A stretch of 64,000 nt of DNA from Actinomycetota bacterium (GTDB taxonomy: Bacteria > Actinomycetota > Acidimicrobiia > Acidimicrobiales > Ilumatobacteraceae), in the NCBI GenBank assembly GCA_009702045.1, contig WLIV01000017.1, positions 1-64,000 on the forward strand, read 5' to 3'. Each line of letters opens with the position of its first letter. Position 1 is the stretch's first letter. Below the pieces are notes generated by a model. That model was not told the DNA's origin. It ran no database searches and worked only from the letters and a program-made list of their open reading frames with translations. Shown here piece after piece: positions 169 to 16,129 of this stretch. The translations under genes were made by a program, and so were the position numbers.

Positions 169-1626
169 GTGACCGAAGCGTCCGCTGAGCCTCTGCACCT
201 GCTCGGTCAGCTCGATGCCAGCGTTGCCTTGCTTCGCCCGCTGATGAGCGAGTCGAACACTGTCGTCGATGCCCATGTGGTGTGGGCCAACGCGAAGGCC
301 GAGTCGGTGTGGGGGAGTCGCGTCGGAGCGCTGGCCAGCGCCGTGTGCCCCGACTTCGACGAGTGGATTGCTGCTGCGAATACTGCGTGGCGTGGCACAT
401 CGGTGAGGCGCTTGATCGAAACTGATCATGGTCGGGTTGGGTGGACGCGTGCGGTGTCCAGTGTGAGCCGAATCGACGGTCATCTCGCCGAGGTCACCAC
501 GGATCGTTCGGCCGACCAGGAACTGATCGATCGCCTCGCGGCGTTGGACCGTCACTATCGGAACCTCCTCGCCGAACTGCCGGTCACCGTGGTGGTTGCT
601 CGGCCTGATCGCGACGAGTTCGAGTTTCTCAGCCCCAACGCAACGGAGTTGACCGGTCGGCCGATGGGTGACATCGATCGGCGTTCAACGTTTCGAGCAC
701 TCCTTCACCCTGACGATCGGCCCCACTTGGATACGGTCGCCTCGTTGCTGCCCAAGGGTGGCGAAGCCGATATTCCGGGCCGCATCATTCGCCCCGACGG
801 TTCCGAACGCCGAGTCGATGCCCGTGCCGTGCTCACTGGCACCAGCCATGACCGAGATCGTCGAATCCTGATCACCATGCTCGATGTGACGGAGCGCCAC
901 GCCACGGAGCTGAAAGCGCAGCAGAGCGAGCGGCTCGAGGGGCTGGCCCGCACGGCTGGTTTGTTCGCCCATCAGTTCAGCAGCCTGTTACAGGTCATTG
1001 GTGGCAACCTCGAACACATGGAACGCGCGACAGAGGGTCCGAACGATCCGCTCACTCAGAGTCTCGCCGCGATCGCTCGTGCGGGCTTGTTGGTGAGTGG
1101 GCTGATGGCGTTCGCCAGTGGCCAGCCGGGCGCCGTCGAACCCGTCTCGGTCCCGGACGTACTTCACGACGTGGACGCCATGTTGCGTAGCGGTCTTCCG
1201 GCAGCGGCGGGCCTCAGCATTGACATCGCCGATGGCGTTCCAGATGTGCTGATGGCTGCCGAAGCATTGCGCGTGGTGGTGTTCAAGATCATTCACAACG
1301 CTGCTGCATCACTCCCGGAGGGTGGTTCGGTGCACATCGACGTGCGCGCATGTGCGGAGGCGCGATGCCATTTGTCGCATCGACCCGAGCCGGGTCACTG
1401 GGTGCGCATCGCGGTTACCGACAACGGCTACGGGATCACTGCCGACCGCCTCAACCAGGTGTGGGAGCCGTTCAACACCTCACTCGTCGGCACCGATGCG
1501 CTCGGCGCTGGCCTCGGTCTGTCGATTGTGCACGGCGTGCTCCACCAATACGACGGGCACCTCACCCTGGACAGCAGTCCGAGCGGTACCACTGTCTCGC
1601 TGTACCTGCCTGCCGCCGACGGCTGA
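169..1626 (+). CDS. PAS-domain sensor histidine kinase (orphan)
   Basis: Predicted cytosolic sensor kinase of 485 aa that would autophosphorylate on histidine and pass phosphate to a response regulator. A variable N-terminal sensor region (about 1-125) is followed by a PAS fold (about 130-245, ending in the typical DVTER linker), an H-box around His268 (FAHQFSSLLQVIGGN), then an HATPase_c domain with an N-box Asn378, a G1 box DNGYGI and a G2 box GAGLGLSIV. No membrane segments are seen, so the signal is probably intracellular. The H-box resembles PAS hybrid kinases of the HisKA_4 kind. No response regulator gene adjoins it; the next gene is convergent. The start is GTG at 169; no strong Shine-Dalgarno sequence is visible. 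Confidence 0.85.
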   Translation: MTEASAEPLHLLGQLDASVALLRPLMSESNTVVDAHVVWANAKAESVWGSRVGALASAVCPDFDEWIAAANTAWRGTSVRRLIETDHGRVGWTRAVSSVSRIDGHLAEVTTDRSADQELIDRLAALDRHYRNLLAELPVTVVVARPDRDEFEFLSPNATELTGRPMGDIDRRSTFRALLHPDDRPHLDTVASLLPKGGEADIPGRIIRPDGSERRVDARAVLTGTSHDRDRRILITMLDVTERHATELKAQQSERLEGLARTAGLFAHQFSSLLQVIGGNLEHMERATEGPNDPLTQSLAAIARAGLLVSGLMAFASGQPGAVEPVSVPDVLHDVDAMLRSGLPAAAGLSIDIADGVPDVLMAAEALRVVVFKIIHNAAASLPEGGSVHIDVRACAEARCHLSHRPEPGHWVRIAVTDNGYGITADRLNQVWEPFNTSLVGTDALGAGLGLSIVHGVLHQYDGHLTLDSSPSGTTVSLYLPAADG

Positions 1627-1656
1627 GCGCCGCGACGCCAACCGGGTCGGCTGGGT

Positions 1657-3267
1657 TCAGAAGTAGCCGGCGACGTCGACGACGAACTGGGTGGGTGCGT
1701 TGGTGTAGAGGCACACCTTGCCGGCGGTGCCGATTTTGGCGATGACGGCGTTGGGGATGGTTTGGCCGGTGGTGTAGTTGAGGTTGGATGCGGTGGGTTG
1801 TGTGGTGCCGCAGGGGTAGATGGTGGCGAAGCCGCCGCCGGTGGGTGAGACGATGGTGACGTTGAGTACCACGGCGTTTGCTGCGGCGTCGACGCCACCG
1901 CGGCCGGTGACGACGAGTTCGGTGACTGAACCGGCTGGTCGTTGTCCGATGCCGGAGTAGGCCATGTCGATGGTTGCTTCGCCGGGGCGTGTGTCCATCA
2001 GCCGCGCCGGACTCAACGGCACATACGCCGGACCTGTTGGCGCCACTCCGGGGATGGAGAGGAGCTTGTTGGGGTCACCGCTCAACAAGCCGGTGACCGC
2101 ACCGGTCGTGGCGTTGGCGCTGAGTGCAGTCCAGATCGCCGCAGGTGTAGCTGTCGGGTTGTCCTGCAGCATCAGCGCCGCAACACCCGCCACGTGCGGG
2201 GAAGCCATTGATGTGCCGCTGCCATACGCGGCTCCAGTGTCCGACCCGAAGTACGCCGACAAGATGTTCGAGCCGGGAGCGAAGATGTCGTTACAGGACC
2301 CATAGTTTGAGTACGAAGCCCTGTTGTCGCCGCTGTCCGAGGCGGCAACCGTGATCGCTGCCGCCGCACGAGCTGGGCTGACGCCGCAGGTCGGCGCAGC
2401 GTCGTTTCCAGCTGCCACGACCACCGTGACACCATCAGCGATCAAGGCGTTGATTGCCGCATCCACAAATGACGATGCCGCCCCACCGAAGCTGATGTTG
2501 GCCACCGCCGGAATGCCCGCCACGTGGTCGGCGATCACCCAGTTGATGCCGGCAATCATGATCGAGTTGGTGCTCTGACCCGTGCAGTCACCGATCTTCA
2601 CCGGGATGATCGTCACTTCCTTGGCCACGCCGTACGTGGTGCCACCCAACGTGCCGGCGACATGGGTGCCGTGACCGTGGCAATCCGTGGCGAGGGTGCC
2701 GTCGCCGAAATCATGGTACGCGGAGCGAGGCACGCGGCCGGTGAACTCGGTGTGTGTCATCCGCAAACCGGTGTCGATCACATACGCGGTGACCCCCGCG
2801 CCGGTGGCCGTATAGGTGTAGCTCGAGTCGAGCGGCAACGCCCGTTGGTCGAGGCGATCGAGGCCCCACGAAGGGGGACTCGACTGACTCGTCGAGGCGG
2901 TGAGGATGTGGTCGGGTTCGACGGCGACGACACCGGATGTGGAGCGCAGGCGCTCGGCCCGTTGCGCATCCACCTCCACGGTCGCCACGTAGATTCCCGT
3001 CGTCGAGACGTCGTCAGTGACGACACCCTGCACGGTGAGCGCAGCAGTGCTGTGCAGCAAGCCCGCCGCCGATTGGTATTGCACGAGATACCGGCCAGCG
3101 GAATCGGCGATTGTCGACGAACCGAACGCGACTGACTCCGCACCGACGGTGCTGGGTGCTGCTGTGCGGGGTGGTTGCGCCCCCACTTCCGTCGCCGGAC
3201 TTGCGACCGCAACGAGCAACCCTGCAGCTACCAGCACCCGCAGCAGTGGCTGGAGGCGGGTTTTCAC
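1657..3267 (-). CDS. Secreted subtilisin-like serine protease (S8, proteinase K type) with C-terminal beta domain
   Basis: Predicted exported endopeptidase of 536 aa. A signal peptide (Lys-Arg start, hydrophobic 9-25) is followed by an I9 propeptide-like region (about 55-125) and a peptidase S8 domain with the full triad: Asp165 (AYVIDTGL), His199 (CHGHGTHVAG) and Ser353 (GTSMASPHVAG), with oxyanion Asn288 (AAGND). The order and motifs match the proteinase K subfamily. Residues about 415-536 form an extra domain starting PLSPARLMDTRPG and ending VVDVAGYF. This type of domain recurs at the ends of actinobacterial secreted proteins and may serve in surface retention. The gene is monocistronic, convergent with the histidine kinase gene. 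Confidence 0.93.
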   Translation of the reverse strand: MKTRLQPLLRVLVAAGLLVAVASPATEVGAQPPRTAAPSTVGAESVAFGSSTIADSAGRYLVQYQSAAGLLHSTAALTVQGVVTDDVSTTGIYVATVEVDAQRAERLRSTSGVVAVEPDHILTASTSQSSPPSWGLDRLDQRALPLDSSYTYTATGAGVTAYVIDTGLRMTHTEFTGRVPRSAYHDFGDGTLATDCHGHGTHVAGTLGGTTYGVAKEVTIIPVKIGDCTGQSTNSIMIAGINWVIADHVAGIPAVANISFGGAASSFVDAAINALIADGVTVVVAAGNDAAPTCGVSPARAAAAITVAASDSGDNRASYSNYGSCNDIFAPGSNILSAYFGSDTGAAYGSGTSMASPHVAGVAALMLQDNPTATPAAIWTALSANATTGAVTGLLSGDPNKLLSIPGVAPTGPAYVPLSPARLMDTRPGEATIDMAYSGIGQRPAGSVTELVVTGRGGVDAAANAVVLNVTIVSPTGGGFATIYPCGTTQPTASNLNYTTGQTIPNAVIAKIGTAGKVCLYTNAPTQFVVDVAGYF

Positions 3268-3980: not shown

Positions 3981-4290
3981 GGGCTCGTGTGGGCGCGATT
4001 TGTGCCGTTGCTGTCCCGGCCCGGCCCGTGTGGGCGCGATTTGTGCCGTTGCTGTCCCGGCCCGGCCCGTGTGGGCGCGATTTGTGCCGTTGCTGTCGTG
4101 TGGGCGCGCTTCGTGCCGTTCGTGCGTAGGAAGCGCGCCCGTGGGAGCTGGGCCGGTCACCGGCGGCACGAATCGCGCCCAACCAATGTCGGGGGTCAGG
4201 GGGCCGGTCACCGGCGGCACGAATCGCGCCCAACCAATGTCGGGGGTCAGGGGGTCGGTCACCGACGGCACGAATCGCGGCCAACCGGGG
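3981..4290. repeat. Intergenic repeat cluster 1 (inverted arrays of a 17-bp unit)
   Basis: This accounts for most of the 410-bp gap between 3900 and 4309. Forward units GGGCGCGATTTGTGCCG lie at 3991, 4032, 4073 (41-bp period) and a variant at 4102. Reverse units CGGCACGAATCGCGCCC lie at 4164, 4215 and, with one change, 4266 (51-bp period). Between the arrays sits a core at about 4123-4160 that is the reverse complement of the core in the two other clusters (sense version GGTGACCGGCCCAGCTCCCA, then CGGGCGCG). All open frames through it are repetitive and unlike proteins. Function unknown; the symmetry would allow a long hairpin or cruciform. Confidence 0.9.
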
Positions 4291-9680: not shown

Positions 9681-9788
9681 CGCAACGCTCAGCTCGGTGG
9701 GTTGTGACTCGCCTGAGCCGAAACGGGTGACGCACTGAGCCAGTTGTTCGCCACCCGCCGACCCCGCCGTGCCCACCCCACCCAGGTT

Positions 9789-9908
9789 GGGCGCGATTTG
9801 TGCCGGTGGTGACTCGGCCGTTCAGGGTTGGGCGCGATTTGTGCCGTTGGTGACCGGCCCAGCTCCCACGGGCGCGGTTCATGCGCAGCAACGGCACGAA
9901 CCGCGCCC
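9789..9908. repeat. Intergenic repeat cluster 2
   Basis: Forward units GGGCGCGATTTGTGCCG at 9789 and 9830 show the same 41-bp period as cluster 1. The core at about 9849-9890 (GGTGACCGGCCCAGCTCCCA, then CGGGCGCGGTTCATGCGCAG) is followed by one reverse unit CGGCACGAACCGCGCCC at 9892-9908. The cluster lies between convergent genes ending at 9680 and 9964, where a bidirectional terminator would be expected, but the related cluster 3 lies between divergent genes. Nothing else is recognised in 9681-9963. Confidence 0.9.
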
Positions 9909-9963
9909 ATTGAACCGGGCGCGCCGCAGCGGGCCAGCACGCCGCAGCGGGCACGGGCGCGCA

Positions 9964-14066: not shown

Positions 14067-14235
14067 GGGCGCGCTTCGTGCCAAGTGTCGTGGGCGCGAT
14101 TCGTGCCGCTGGTGACCGAGCCAGCTCCCACGGGCGCGCTTCTTGCGCAGCGCCGGCACGAAGCGCGCCCATGCGACAGCAACGGCACGAATCGCGCCCA
14201 CGCGACAGACGACAGCAACGGCACGAATCGCGCCC
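14067..14235. repeat. Intergenic repeat cluster 3
   Basis: Forward units begin at 14067 (variant GGGCGCGCTTCGTGCC) and 14092 (GGGCGCGATTCGTGCCG). The core at about 14111-14152 matches that of clusters 1 and 2 (GGTGACCG, CCAGCTCCCACGGGCGCG, TTGCGCAG). Reverse units begin at 14154, 14183 and 14219; the last two are exact CGGCACGAATCGCGCCC. It fills the 290-bp gap between divergent gene starts at 14018 and 14309, so it may lie in or next to both promoters. Confidence 0.9.
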
Positions 14236-14308
14236 ACGCGACACGGCTCGCCGCGCCGCGCGGGCCACGCAAGGCTCCGCGGTTGAACGGCTCGTTAGTG
14301 TCGACCGC

Positions 14309-16129
14309 ATGAGTTGGGCTGAACGTTGGGTGCGGGCGATGGGTGCACCGCGGCTGCTGGTGGTGGGTGGCGCATCGCTGGACCTCATCCACATCGACGG
14401 CGAGCCCGTGGCAACGCCCGGTGGTGCCGGCCTGTACACCGCGCTCGCCGCAGTGCGTGCCGGCGTGCAGGTGACGATGCTCGCGCCCGTACCCGACCCG
14501 ATGCCGCCCGAACTCGAGCCCGCGCGGCGGTTGCTGAATTGGGTCGGCCCGATCGTGCCTGTCGCCGAGCTGCCGCGCTTCGAGATCGCCTACGACGACG
14601 GTGGCGCGATCACCCTGTTCCGCGAGTACCTCGGGGCCGAGCCGGAGATGACGCCTGCGCTGCTCGACCTGATTGCCGACATGCCATCGTGCGCGTACTG
14701 CGTGCCGTTCATGGACGCCGGATTGCAGCGCAAGTTCGTCGACGCGCTGCGCGAGCGCGGCTGCCTCACCGTCGGCTCCACCTACGGCAAAGCCGCACAA
14801 CTGGAGACCGCCCTGGTGCGCGCCACACTGTCGACCACCGACCTGTCGTTCTGCAACGCCGCCGAGCAGAGCCTGCTGTTCGGCGATACCGCATCCTCCG
14901 CGCCCGCACCCGGGCAACTGCGTTTCGTCACCCGTGGGGCCAGCGGGGTCAGCGTGTTCCAGGGCGACCACCGCACCGACCTCACCGGCCACCCGGTCGC
15001 GGTCGTCGACCCGACAGGCGCAGGTGACACGTTCTGCGGCACCACCGTGGCTCGCCTGCTGTTGGGCGACCACCCGGTGGAGGCGGCGCGTCGCGGCAAC
15101 GCCGCCGCGGCCGAGATGGTGACGGCCCTCGGCCCGACGATGCTGTGGCAACCCGGTCCGCCGCCGTTGCCTCACGCTGATCATCGGGCGCGTGTCAACA
15201 CCGACGTGGTCGACCGTATGGCAGAGCTCGTCGCCGAGATGGCCGACCTGCGTGGCTTCGACTTCACCGGCGATCTGTTTCCCGCGGTCGGCGACCCCGC
15301 GACGATCGACTGGTTCGCCGCGGCGACGCTGCAGCAGTTCGGGTTCTGGTACTCGGCCGACGACCACTGGGACCGGTCGATGATCGACGCCATCGACGGC
15401 ACGACGCGCAAGGGCAGCGACTATCTGTGGGCCGTGTATCGGCGCTGGGCGACGGCCGACCCGAACGCGATGTCGGCCGCCGGCCAGGCCGCAGTCACCG
15501 CCGACACGTGGCATGCGCTCGCTGCGGCCGACGACGGCAGCGACCCGTTCCCCGAACCCAACCTGTGCGCGGAACTGGCAGCCGCCTACGGAACCACGAT
15601 GCAGCATCTGGGCCTCACCCCGACCGAACTCATCAGCGTGGCCGCCGCCACCGCACACCCGATGCGTTCGCTGCTCACACTGCTCGACCATGTCGGTGGT
15701 TACCGCGAAGACCCGCTGCGTAAGAAGTCAGCGCTGCTGGGCGTGATCCTGCGCCAACGCCCCGAGCGGCTGTTGCCCGCTGCGGAGCGCGACGATGCTC
15801 CGCCGATCGTCGACTACCACGTGCAGCGCAGTTGCCTGCGCACGGGCATGGTCGCCATCGACGACGCGCAACTGGCGGCAAAGGTGCAGGCTCGCACCGT
15901 GCTCGACGAGGACGAGGAGGCGGCCATTCGCCGAGCCACGTTCTACGCTGTCGCTCGCCTCTGCGAACGCAGCGGACGCACGATGGGTGCCGTCGACTGG
16001 TTCTTGTTCCAGATGCGCCACCGCTGCCCGGAAGTTGCCACCCCGGTGTGCGCCGACTGCCCGGCCGACCCGCAGTGCAGTCACCTCGTGCAACTGTTCC
16101 AACCGGTGCGCCGCACCACCTTCTACTGA
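14309..16129 (+). CDS. PfkB-family kinase fused to a queuosine-salvage (Qng1/DUF2419)-like glycosylase domain
   Basis: A 606-aa fusion. Residues 14-290 are a PfkB/ribokinase-type kinase: PGGAGLYTA (38-45) near the sugar site and the anion-hole motif DPTGAGD (234-240) with catalytic Asp240. Residues about 298-570 resemble the queuosine 5'-phosphate N-glycosylase family, which is related to helix-hairpin-helix DNA glycosylases: IDWFAAATLQQFGFW, GSDYLWAVYRR, VDYHVQRSCLRTGMV and EDEEAAIRRATFYAVARL in family order. The tail has Cys573, Cys581, Cys584 and Cys590 (C-x7-C-x2-C-x5-C), close to the endonuclease III iron-sulfur loop. Inference: a nucleoside kinase and a nucleotide glycosylase in one chain for salvage of a modified nucleoside. 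Single gene with repeat cluster 3 upstream. The kinase call is firm; the second domain is moderately sure. Confidence 0.7.
   Translation: MSWAERWVRAMGAPRLLVVGGASLDLIHIDGEPVATPGGAGLYTALAAVRAGVQVTMLAPVPDPMPPELEPARRLLNWVGPIVPVAELPRFEIAYDDGGAITLFREYLGAEPEMTPALLDLIADMPSCAYCVPFMDAGLQRKFVDALRERGCLTVGSTYGKAAQLETALVRATLSTTDLSFCNAAEQSLLFGDTASSAPAPGQLRFVTRGASGVSVFQGDHRTDLTGHPVAVVDPTGAGDTFCGTTVARLLLGDHPVEAARRGNAAAAEMVTALGPTMLWQPGPPPLPHADHRARVNTDVVDRMAELVAEMADLRGFDFTGDLFPAVGDPATIDWFAAATLQQFGFWYSADDHWDRSMIDAIDGTTRKGSDYLWAVYRRWATADPNAMSAAGQAAVTADTWHALAAADDGSDPFPEPNLCAELAAAYGTTMQHLGLTPTELISVAAATAHPMRSLLTLLDHVGGYREDPLRKKSALLGVILRQRPERLLPAAERDDAPPIVDYHVQRSCLRTGMVAIDDAQLAAKVQARTVLDEDEEAAIRRATFYAVARLCERSGRTMGAVDWFLFQMRHRCPEVATPVCADCPADPQCSHLVQLFQPVRRTTFY

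Follow-up and report, generated by a model that had tools for sequence, protein, structure and literature searches.

A PfkB-type kinase fused to a Qng1-like domain as a candidate one-protein salvage enzyme for a modified nucleoside

Qng1, a DUF2419 N-glycosylase that recovers the queuosine base from degraded tRNA, acts on the 5'-monophosphate of queuosine, and pseudouridine is salvaged by PsuK and PsuG, a kinase followed by a nucleotide glycosidase, of which a fused eukaryotic form exists. Here we analyzed a 64,000-nucleotide stretch of contig WLIV01000017.1 from an Ilumatobacteraceae genome (Actinomycetota, Acidimicrobiia; hereafter the window), in which one gene encodes a PfkB-type kinase continuous with a Qng1-like N-glycosylase domain. 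A preliminary description of this DNA had proposed that the kinase makes the 5'-phosphate of a modified nucleoside, from which the second domain releases the base. A further route, indirect queuosine salvage by the nucleoside hydrolase QueK and the lyase QueL, is described in PMC11570991 and PMC11130926.

Domain architecture and conservation of the fusion

The bifunctional open reading frame (ORF; 14309-16129, plus strand) runs unbroken from an ATG at 14309 to a TGA ending at 16129, its coding part (14309-16126) specifying 606 amino acids. A longer open frame is possible from an upstream GTG at 14078; the alignment of close relatives starts at the Met at 14309. The PfkB-family kinase domain covers about residues 14-296 (14348-15196, plus strand) and the Qng1-like N-glycosylase domain residues 297-606 (15197-16126, plus strand). 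AlphaFold2 produced a confident full-length model of the protein (pLDDT 93.3, pTM 0.94).

A scan of a species-genome collection, limited to loci with a match to either of two peptide patterns, retrieved 62 related loci, assigned by record title to Actinomycetota, Chloroflexota, Acidobacteriota, Gemmatimonadota, Pseudomonadota, Myxococcota, Calditrichota, Fidelibacterota and Hydrogenedentota. The full-length in-frame fusion is present in 50 of them, and a further nine are fusions truncated at a contig end or interrupted by a frame break (L017, L029, L032, L039-L042, L046 and L067, with about 36 residues of the kinase end left in L046). The other three (L056, L059 and L066) are stand-alone, and no kinase relative was found within these loci. 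Because 59 of the 62 loci, from several phyla, carry the fusion, it is not a chance arrangement. Among 198 genomes of the same class, the C-terminal domain was matched in six: the genome of the window, four with further fusions (most likely the same as L058, L068, L069 and L070 of the 62 loci) and one with a distant stand-alone protein, L009. The sole other genome of the same genus among these 198 (G047) gave no match. The survey that the preliminary description had called for thus places the fusion both within Acidimicrobiia and across phyla.

In a tree of the C-terminal domains built by a quick method, the fusions fall into two sets, one of which has the three stand-alone proteins at its base; the rooting is unsure because a long branch connects the fusion family to Qng1. 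The distant L009 protein (1324-2295, minus strand, genome G084; 324 aa) matches the C-terminal domain weakly (E 4.4e-8), has a cysteine-rich C-terminus ending in HRGGFY and matches no Pfam model at E<=0.01; it may represent another branch of the Qng1/HhH superfamily.

The kinship of the C-terminal domain was assessed at the level of sequence, profile and structure. Residues 297-606 alone matched no Pfam or NCBIfam model. The profile comparison proposed earlier gave a mixed result: PF10343 (Q_salvage) had no match in the window protein in a Pfam scan, but matched 39 of the 63 family members (the window and the 62 loci) at E up to 10, with a best value of 4.4e-10, and the HhH-GPD profile matched four of the 63 weakly (best E 0.072). 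Human Qng1/DUF2419 was the first PDB sequence match of the domain, weak for the single sequence (E 0.089) and improving to 0.0049 with a profile of five members and to 4.2e-6 with all 63. The profile of the fusion family was also aligned, locally and globally, with that of nine bona fide Qng1 proteins, all encoded in genomes of the phylum to which the window belongs (two rows, L117 and L118, being slightly short at the C-terminus), and hhalign returned a local E of 8.8e-10.

The AlphaFold2 model of the domain, computed from the family alignment (pLDDT 93.8, pTM 0.92), gave the same picture. In a Foldseek search against the PDB the best 11 rows were all Qng1/DUF2419 (E 8.9e-11 to 1.6e-9), and VIA-align superposed the domain on Qng1 with Z 27.3-28.3 over 276-284 residues, the best alignment having Z 28.3 over 277 residues at 2.3 A; residues 255-606 of the full-length model reached Z 29.0. 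HhH glycosylases formed a second tier, with Pa-AGOG (1xqo) at Z 15.0 over 228 residues and endonuclease III (2abk) at Z 14.3 over 206. By these predicted models, the closest fold is that of Qng1/DUF2419 rather than of an HhH DNA glycosylase. The overlay agrees with the earlier reading of three motifs of the second domain, all of which are present in the order common to queuosine 5'-phosphate N-glycosylases.

Two putative active-site residues stand out, Lys472 (15722-15724, plus strand) and Asp502 (15812-15814, plus strand), each conserved in 63 of 63 family members and aligned to a residue invariant in the nine Qng1 proteins. By alignment, they probably correspond to K199 and D231 of crystallised Qng1, mutations of which are named in the titles of PDB entries 7u5a and 7ulc. 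This assignment is made because the invariant Lys and Asp are 32 residues apart in three of the nine Qng1 proteins, as between 199 and 231; the spacing is 28 in the other six. Besides D502 and K472, the residues W347, R511, E537 and R541 and three of four cysteines are invariant in the 63 aligned C-terminal domains. Positions invariant or nearly so in both the family and Qng1 are L510-R511, E537, R541, D563, an aromatic residue at 567, R602 and Y606.

The cysteines form the motif C573-x7-C581-x2-C584-x5-C590 (16025-16078, plus strand), a candidate [4Fe-4S] loop. The corresponding loop of endonuclease III is C-x6-C-x2-C-x5-C, so that the order is the same and the first spacing is one residue longer in the window. 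The loop lies at the same end as in endonuclease III, to which the family profile aligns weakly, and PF10576 (EndIII_4Fe-2S) matches four of the 63 members (best E 0.033). Exactly this spacing recurs in 61 of the 63 domains, the exceptions being L060, with a shifted last cysteine, and L068, truncated where its contig ends. The fourth cysteine itself is found in 62, the remaining row being the one so truncated. None of the nine bona fide Qng1 proteins has the four-cysteine pattern. The likeness of the tail to endonuclease III, noted from the window alone, therefore extends to the family, and by analogy the loop may bind an Fe-S cluster with a structural role. The presence of such a loop in a Qng1 relative links base-excision repair glycosylases to micronutrient salvage.

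The N-terminal part matches PF00294 (Pfam scan, E 7.1e-19) and contains the DPTGAGD motif at residues 234-240 (15008-15028, plus strand), with Asp240, which we take to be the catalytic Asp of PfkB kinases. The motif, reported intact in the preliminary description, is kept as DPTGAGD in 47 of 50 full-length kinase domains (window included, L044 excluded) and as D-x-TGAGD in 49; neither it nor the four cysteines is generally lost in orthologues. Asp25 (14381-14383, plus strand), presumably the PfkB position that binds sugar hydroxyls, is invariant in both kinase alignments. In the L050 fusion of an Anaerolineaceae genome (7113-8933, plus strand), Glu stands at the position of the catalytic Asp.

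A sequence profile of the kinase family has as its nearest solved structure 3kd6, titled as a nucleoside kinase from Chlorobium, at E 2.3e-26, ten orders of magnitude ahead of the next (4.5e-16). In VIA comparisons with the full-length model, 3kd6 also leads (Z 31.2), followed by 2c49 (30.4), ribokinase 1rk2 (30.1) and BthNK (30.0); the pseudouridine kinase structures 7vva and 7c1x reach Z 28.0 and 27.7. These matches favour a kinase of the nucleoside type, with ribokinase close behind.

Gene context and queuosine genes in the host genomes

CNT transporters, which are general nucleoside importers, accounted for two of 67 adjacent proteins scanned (PF07662, best E 7.2e-74). In the Acidobacteriota locus L036, the CNT stop codon abuts the ATG of the fusion, and in L028, also from Acidobacteriota, the CNT gene lies directly upstream with a 16-base gap. 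The L031 contig begins within a CNT gene, whose end lies about 1.2 kb upstream of the fusion, with one gene in between. In the C-terminal domain tree, L028 and L031 are basal branches of the family, and L036 is placed elsewhere. This gene context supports nucleoside uptake and salvage. No neighbour was conserved family-wide when 593 ORFs around 59 of the 62 loci were clustered (L015, L019 and L070 were dropped, as no target ORF was called); the widest cluster covered seven loci.

The immediate neighbours in the window, genes for an alkyl-sulfatase-dimerisation-domain protein and a PIN-domain protein, are unrelated and lie on the strand opposite to the fusion. A 19-base unit, GGCACGAATCGCGCCCACG, and its variants with up to three mismatches occur in 14 copies on the two strands, where chance alone would give 0.14, and are grouped in three clusters of the window (3988-4285, 9786-9911 and 14089-14238), the last a short distance before the fusion gene. 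Judged by eye from its N-terminus, the gene three positions downstream of the fusion, and on the opposite strand, resembles adenosine deaminase in four related Anaerolineales loci (L051 10615-11682, L052 3528-4598, L054 8120-9172 and L055 10576-11628, all minus strand).

Queuosine genes were examined in 51 fusion genomes, namely that of the window and those of 50 of the 62 loci. TGT was found in 45, QueA in 46 and QPTR in 20. QueC was present at full length in eight (E<=1e-69) and in one more at 2e-22, giving nine at E<=1e-15; matches at E<=0.001 occur in 39 genomes, those beyond the nine being weak and mostly short fragments. QueA without QueC at E<=1e-15 was thus the situation in 37 of the 51, which therefore probably need an outside precursor. 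The same holds for the four further fusion genomes of the class (G007, G018, G133 and G168) and for the genome of the window, which is 99.45 percent complete, has TGT and QueA adjacent to each other and has no QueC at E<=1e-15. As most of the genome records are metagenome assemblies, single gene absences mean little.

Bona fide Qng1 gave no match in the genome of the window, in a search in which no control genome gave a signal either. Across the phylum, it exceeded the cut-off in nine of 296 genomes; two further matches were not counted: L124 looks by eye like a glutamyl-tRNA synthetase, and L125 is the G018 fusion itself. Five of the nine Qng1-bearing genomes, all of one family, encode a TGT with the pocket motif GGSLG, and one has no TGT match. 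The three that belong to Acidimicrobiia combine a GGLSVGE TGT with QueA, which was looked for in the genomes of this class.

Proposed function and alternatives

Taken together, the computed folds, the residue conservation, the fusion itself and the CNT genes jointly favour a kinase-then-glycosylase reaction on a nucleoside. A nucleoside, imported (in some hosts by the CNT transporter encoded beside the fusion) or recovered from tRNA breakdown, would be phosphorylated at its 5'-OH by the N-terminal kinase. The Qng1-like domain would bind the 5'-phosphate and cleave the N-glycosidic bond through D502, aided by K472, to yield the free base and ribose 5-phosphate. We consider one-protein salvage of a modified nucleoside, with the queuosine (7-deazaguanine) family as the most likely class, to be somewhat more probable than not. 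The queuosine family is proposed because of the kinship to Qng1 and the pathway context. Where the host TGT is of the queuine type, the released base could be queuine, ready for direct use. In the many hosts with a preQ1-type TGT and QueA and without QueC, it would have to be preQ1, or queuine that a lyase turns into preQ1; the base need not be queuine, because most hosts would need preQ1.

Several observations weigh against this proposal. No queuosine gene emerged as a conserved neighbour in the clustering, and no Rfam family, riboswitches included, reached its gathering score in the window and nine of the 62 loci. Lys368, Arg484, Tyr503, Arg507 and Arg570 (each 63 of 63) and His504 (62 of 63) are specific to the family and not found in Qng1. 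These differences may mean that another base is bound, and judged from the alignment the residues may serve to tune either the base pocket or the cluster. The L050 kinase, DPTGAGE, is the sole exception to D-x-TGAGD among the 50 kinase domains, and its activity may be weak or lost because Glu occupies the catalytic Asp position. The genome of the window contains a 50-position fragment matching the QueC model (6.7e-5, above the Pfam cut-off), which we take for another ATP-pyrophosphatase-type protein. No QPTR was found in this genome, and no queuine lyase was named among its 12 PF04055 hits, of which 10 proteins were scanned with NCBIfam (L145 and L150, one two-domain frame, were left out), a collection that may hold no queuine lyase model; two PF04055 proteins compared with PDB sequences gave no queuine lyase match either. 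A lyase of an unrecognised kind may be present. Class-wide, QueA occurs in 140 of the 198 genomes and QueC at E<=1e-15 in 18, so that having QueA and no such QueC is widespread in the class rather than specific to the fusion, and co-occurrence with QueA is weak evidence.

The TGT pocket was read in 41 of the 51 fusion genomes (six had no TGT match, and G214, G221, G226 and G247 were unread at the motif). It is of the preQ1 type, GGL[SA]VGE, in 35 of the 41, with near-variants in three more (GGLSIGE, GGVAIGE and GGVSVGE), and GGL[SA]VGE also occurs in the four class fusion genomes, outside the 41. The queuine-type pocket GGSLG (GGSLGK) was read in the remaining three, all Chloroflexi (L022, L034 and L049); with the motif aligned by eye, it has glycine at the position of Val233. 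These three genomes have a QPTR gene, no QueC at E<=1e-15, and a QueA that is absent (G234) or weaker-scoring (5.4e-77 in G208, 6.4e-81 in G220). PMC3660597 ties Val233 to the use of preQ1 and Gly to that of queuine, and PMC11570991 gives GG[LS][AS]G as the pocket motif of queuine-salvaging TGTs, a pattern to which GGSLG conforms only partly. The counts leave out additional TGT-like genes of G231 (L153) and G235 (L154), in which GGWPLD takes the place of the pocket motif; L153 is also interrupted by an in-frame TGA. A second copy in G220 has no readable pocket motif.

Since TGT is mostly of the preQ1 type and QueA is present in 46 of the 51 genomes, freed queuine could not be inserted straight into tRNA in most hosts. 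A eukaryote-like direct salvage in all hosts, in which queuosine 5'-phosphate is converted to queuine and re-inserted by TGT, is accordingly most improbable, even though the three Chloroflexi genomes would suit it and their GGSLG pocket recurs in the five Qng1-bearing actinobacteria. The reading in the preliminary description is thus supported in part: the domain pair, the Qng1 kinship, the conserved Lys and Asp, the cysteine loop, a probable nucleoside-type kinase and a context of nucleoside uptake and of queuosine pathways mostly lacking QueC speak for it, whereas the TGT pockets and QueA speak against salvage in its simplest form.

The same two steps could instead serve catabolism of a modified nucleoside other than queuosine, as in the pseudouridine pathway, disposing of RNA-derived or imported nucleosides and recovering ribose 5-phosphate. 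The presence of pseudouridine kinases among the structural matches, the proximity of genes for general nucleoside importers, the lack of conserved queuosine neighbours and the family-specific invariant residues are all compatible with this. Yet the C-terminal domain is specifically Qng1-like, with no PsuG match in the structure, profile or Pfam searches, and most hosts are queuosine users by their TGT and QueA, common though both genes are; we therefore see catabolism as possible but rather unlikely. The order of the steps might also be reversed, with the C-terminal domain hydrolysing the free nucleoside and the kinase phosphorylating the released ribose. Ribokinase lies just 1.1 Z under the best nucleoside kinase, which counts against our proposal, and the ribokinase model TIGR02152 matches 51 of 51 members at E<=0.001. 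On the other hand, the NCBIfam matches printed for the window protein all stay below their curated cut-offs (the best at 45.1 of 299.65 bits), the title of the nearest solved kinase names a nucleoside kinase, and Qng1 prefers the 5'-monophosphate, all of which make a reversed order improbable. The substrate of Qng1 is stated as Q or Q-MP in PMC11130926. A last alternative is a glycosylase of the Fe-S HhH type that repairs DNA or RNA and is incidentally fused to a kinase: the endonuclease III-like loop, the second-tier structural matches and the weak HhH-GPD hits point that way, but Qng1 is ahead by about 13 Z and aligns more residues, and a small-molecule kinase partner with upstream CNT genes in some loci is ill-suited to polynucleotide repair. 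We give this explanation very little weight.

Within the favoured kinase-then-glycosylase salvage, a more specific scenario can be put forward tentatively: a nucleoside kinase, coupled to CNT uptake in some hosts, and an Fe-S branch of Qng1 would together free a preQ1-type base or queuine, supplying bacteria that have TGT and QueA and lack de novo preQ0 synthesis. PMC11130926 reports that an Acidobacteriota transporter encoded next to qng1 moves preQ0 and preQ1, which was unexpected to its authors; such a case would be accounted for if a relative of Qng1 released a preQ1-type base. If the scenario is true, the fusion would add an entry point to queuosine, and its kinase would be the first assigned to a queuosine-family nucleoside. 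Many hosts keep late queuosine genes without QueC, and the source of their preQ1 is a question that the fusion makes directly testable.

Comparison with described systems

No description of a kinase-Qng1 fusion was found in titles and abstract openings of the open-licence literature, among the matches listed, in agreement with the preliminary description, whose author knew of no enzyme with this domain pair and cysteine cluster. The phrase "queuosine kinase" was likewise not found in the open-licence literature. PMC11130926 surveyed Qng1 neighbours and transporter fusions, and the word kinase is absent from its main text. By the open-licence literature, the enzyme may thus be undescribed, and it offers a candidate queuosine-nucleoside kinase in the same chain as a Qng1-like domain in bacteria of several phyla.

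The GG and GAGD motifs of the window kinase are shared by the PfkB nucleoside kinases of Chlorobium (3kd6), Methanocaldococcus (2c49) and Burkholderia (BthNK). All three have the same fold, 3kd6 being the closest in both sequence and structure, but their identity to the window kinase is 17-21 percent and none of these chains carries a glycosylase. Qng1 (PF10343; PDB 7ugk, 7uk3 and 7ulc) resembles the C-terminal domain in fold across the whole domain and in motif order. It differs in sequence, with only 18-21 percent identity in the structural alignments, and the domain of the window is joined to a kinase, has invariant residues of its own and occurs in hosts whose TGT is mostly of the preQ1 type. 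The Fe-S HhH glycosylases endonuclease III and MutY match the fold only in the second tier, with Z far under that of Qng1, and in contrast to them the C-terminal domain is partnered with a small-molecule kinase.

In its proposed logic, the fusion resembles PsuK/PsuG, which also act as a kinase and then a nucleotide glycosidase, with a PsuK structure at Z 28.0 to the window kinase; its glycosidase half, unlike PsuG, is of the Qng1/HhH type. According to PMC11570991 and PMC11130926, QueK and QueL likewise free the q base for bacteria that rebuild queuosine via preQ1, as proposed here for the fusion, but QueK belongs to an unrelated protein family and acts on the nucleoside, and the genome of the window has no recognised counterpart of the queuine lyase.

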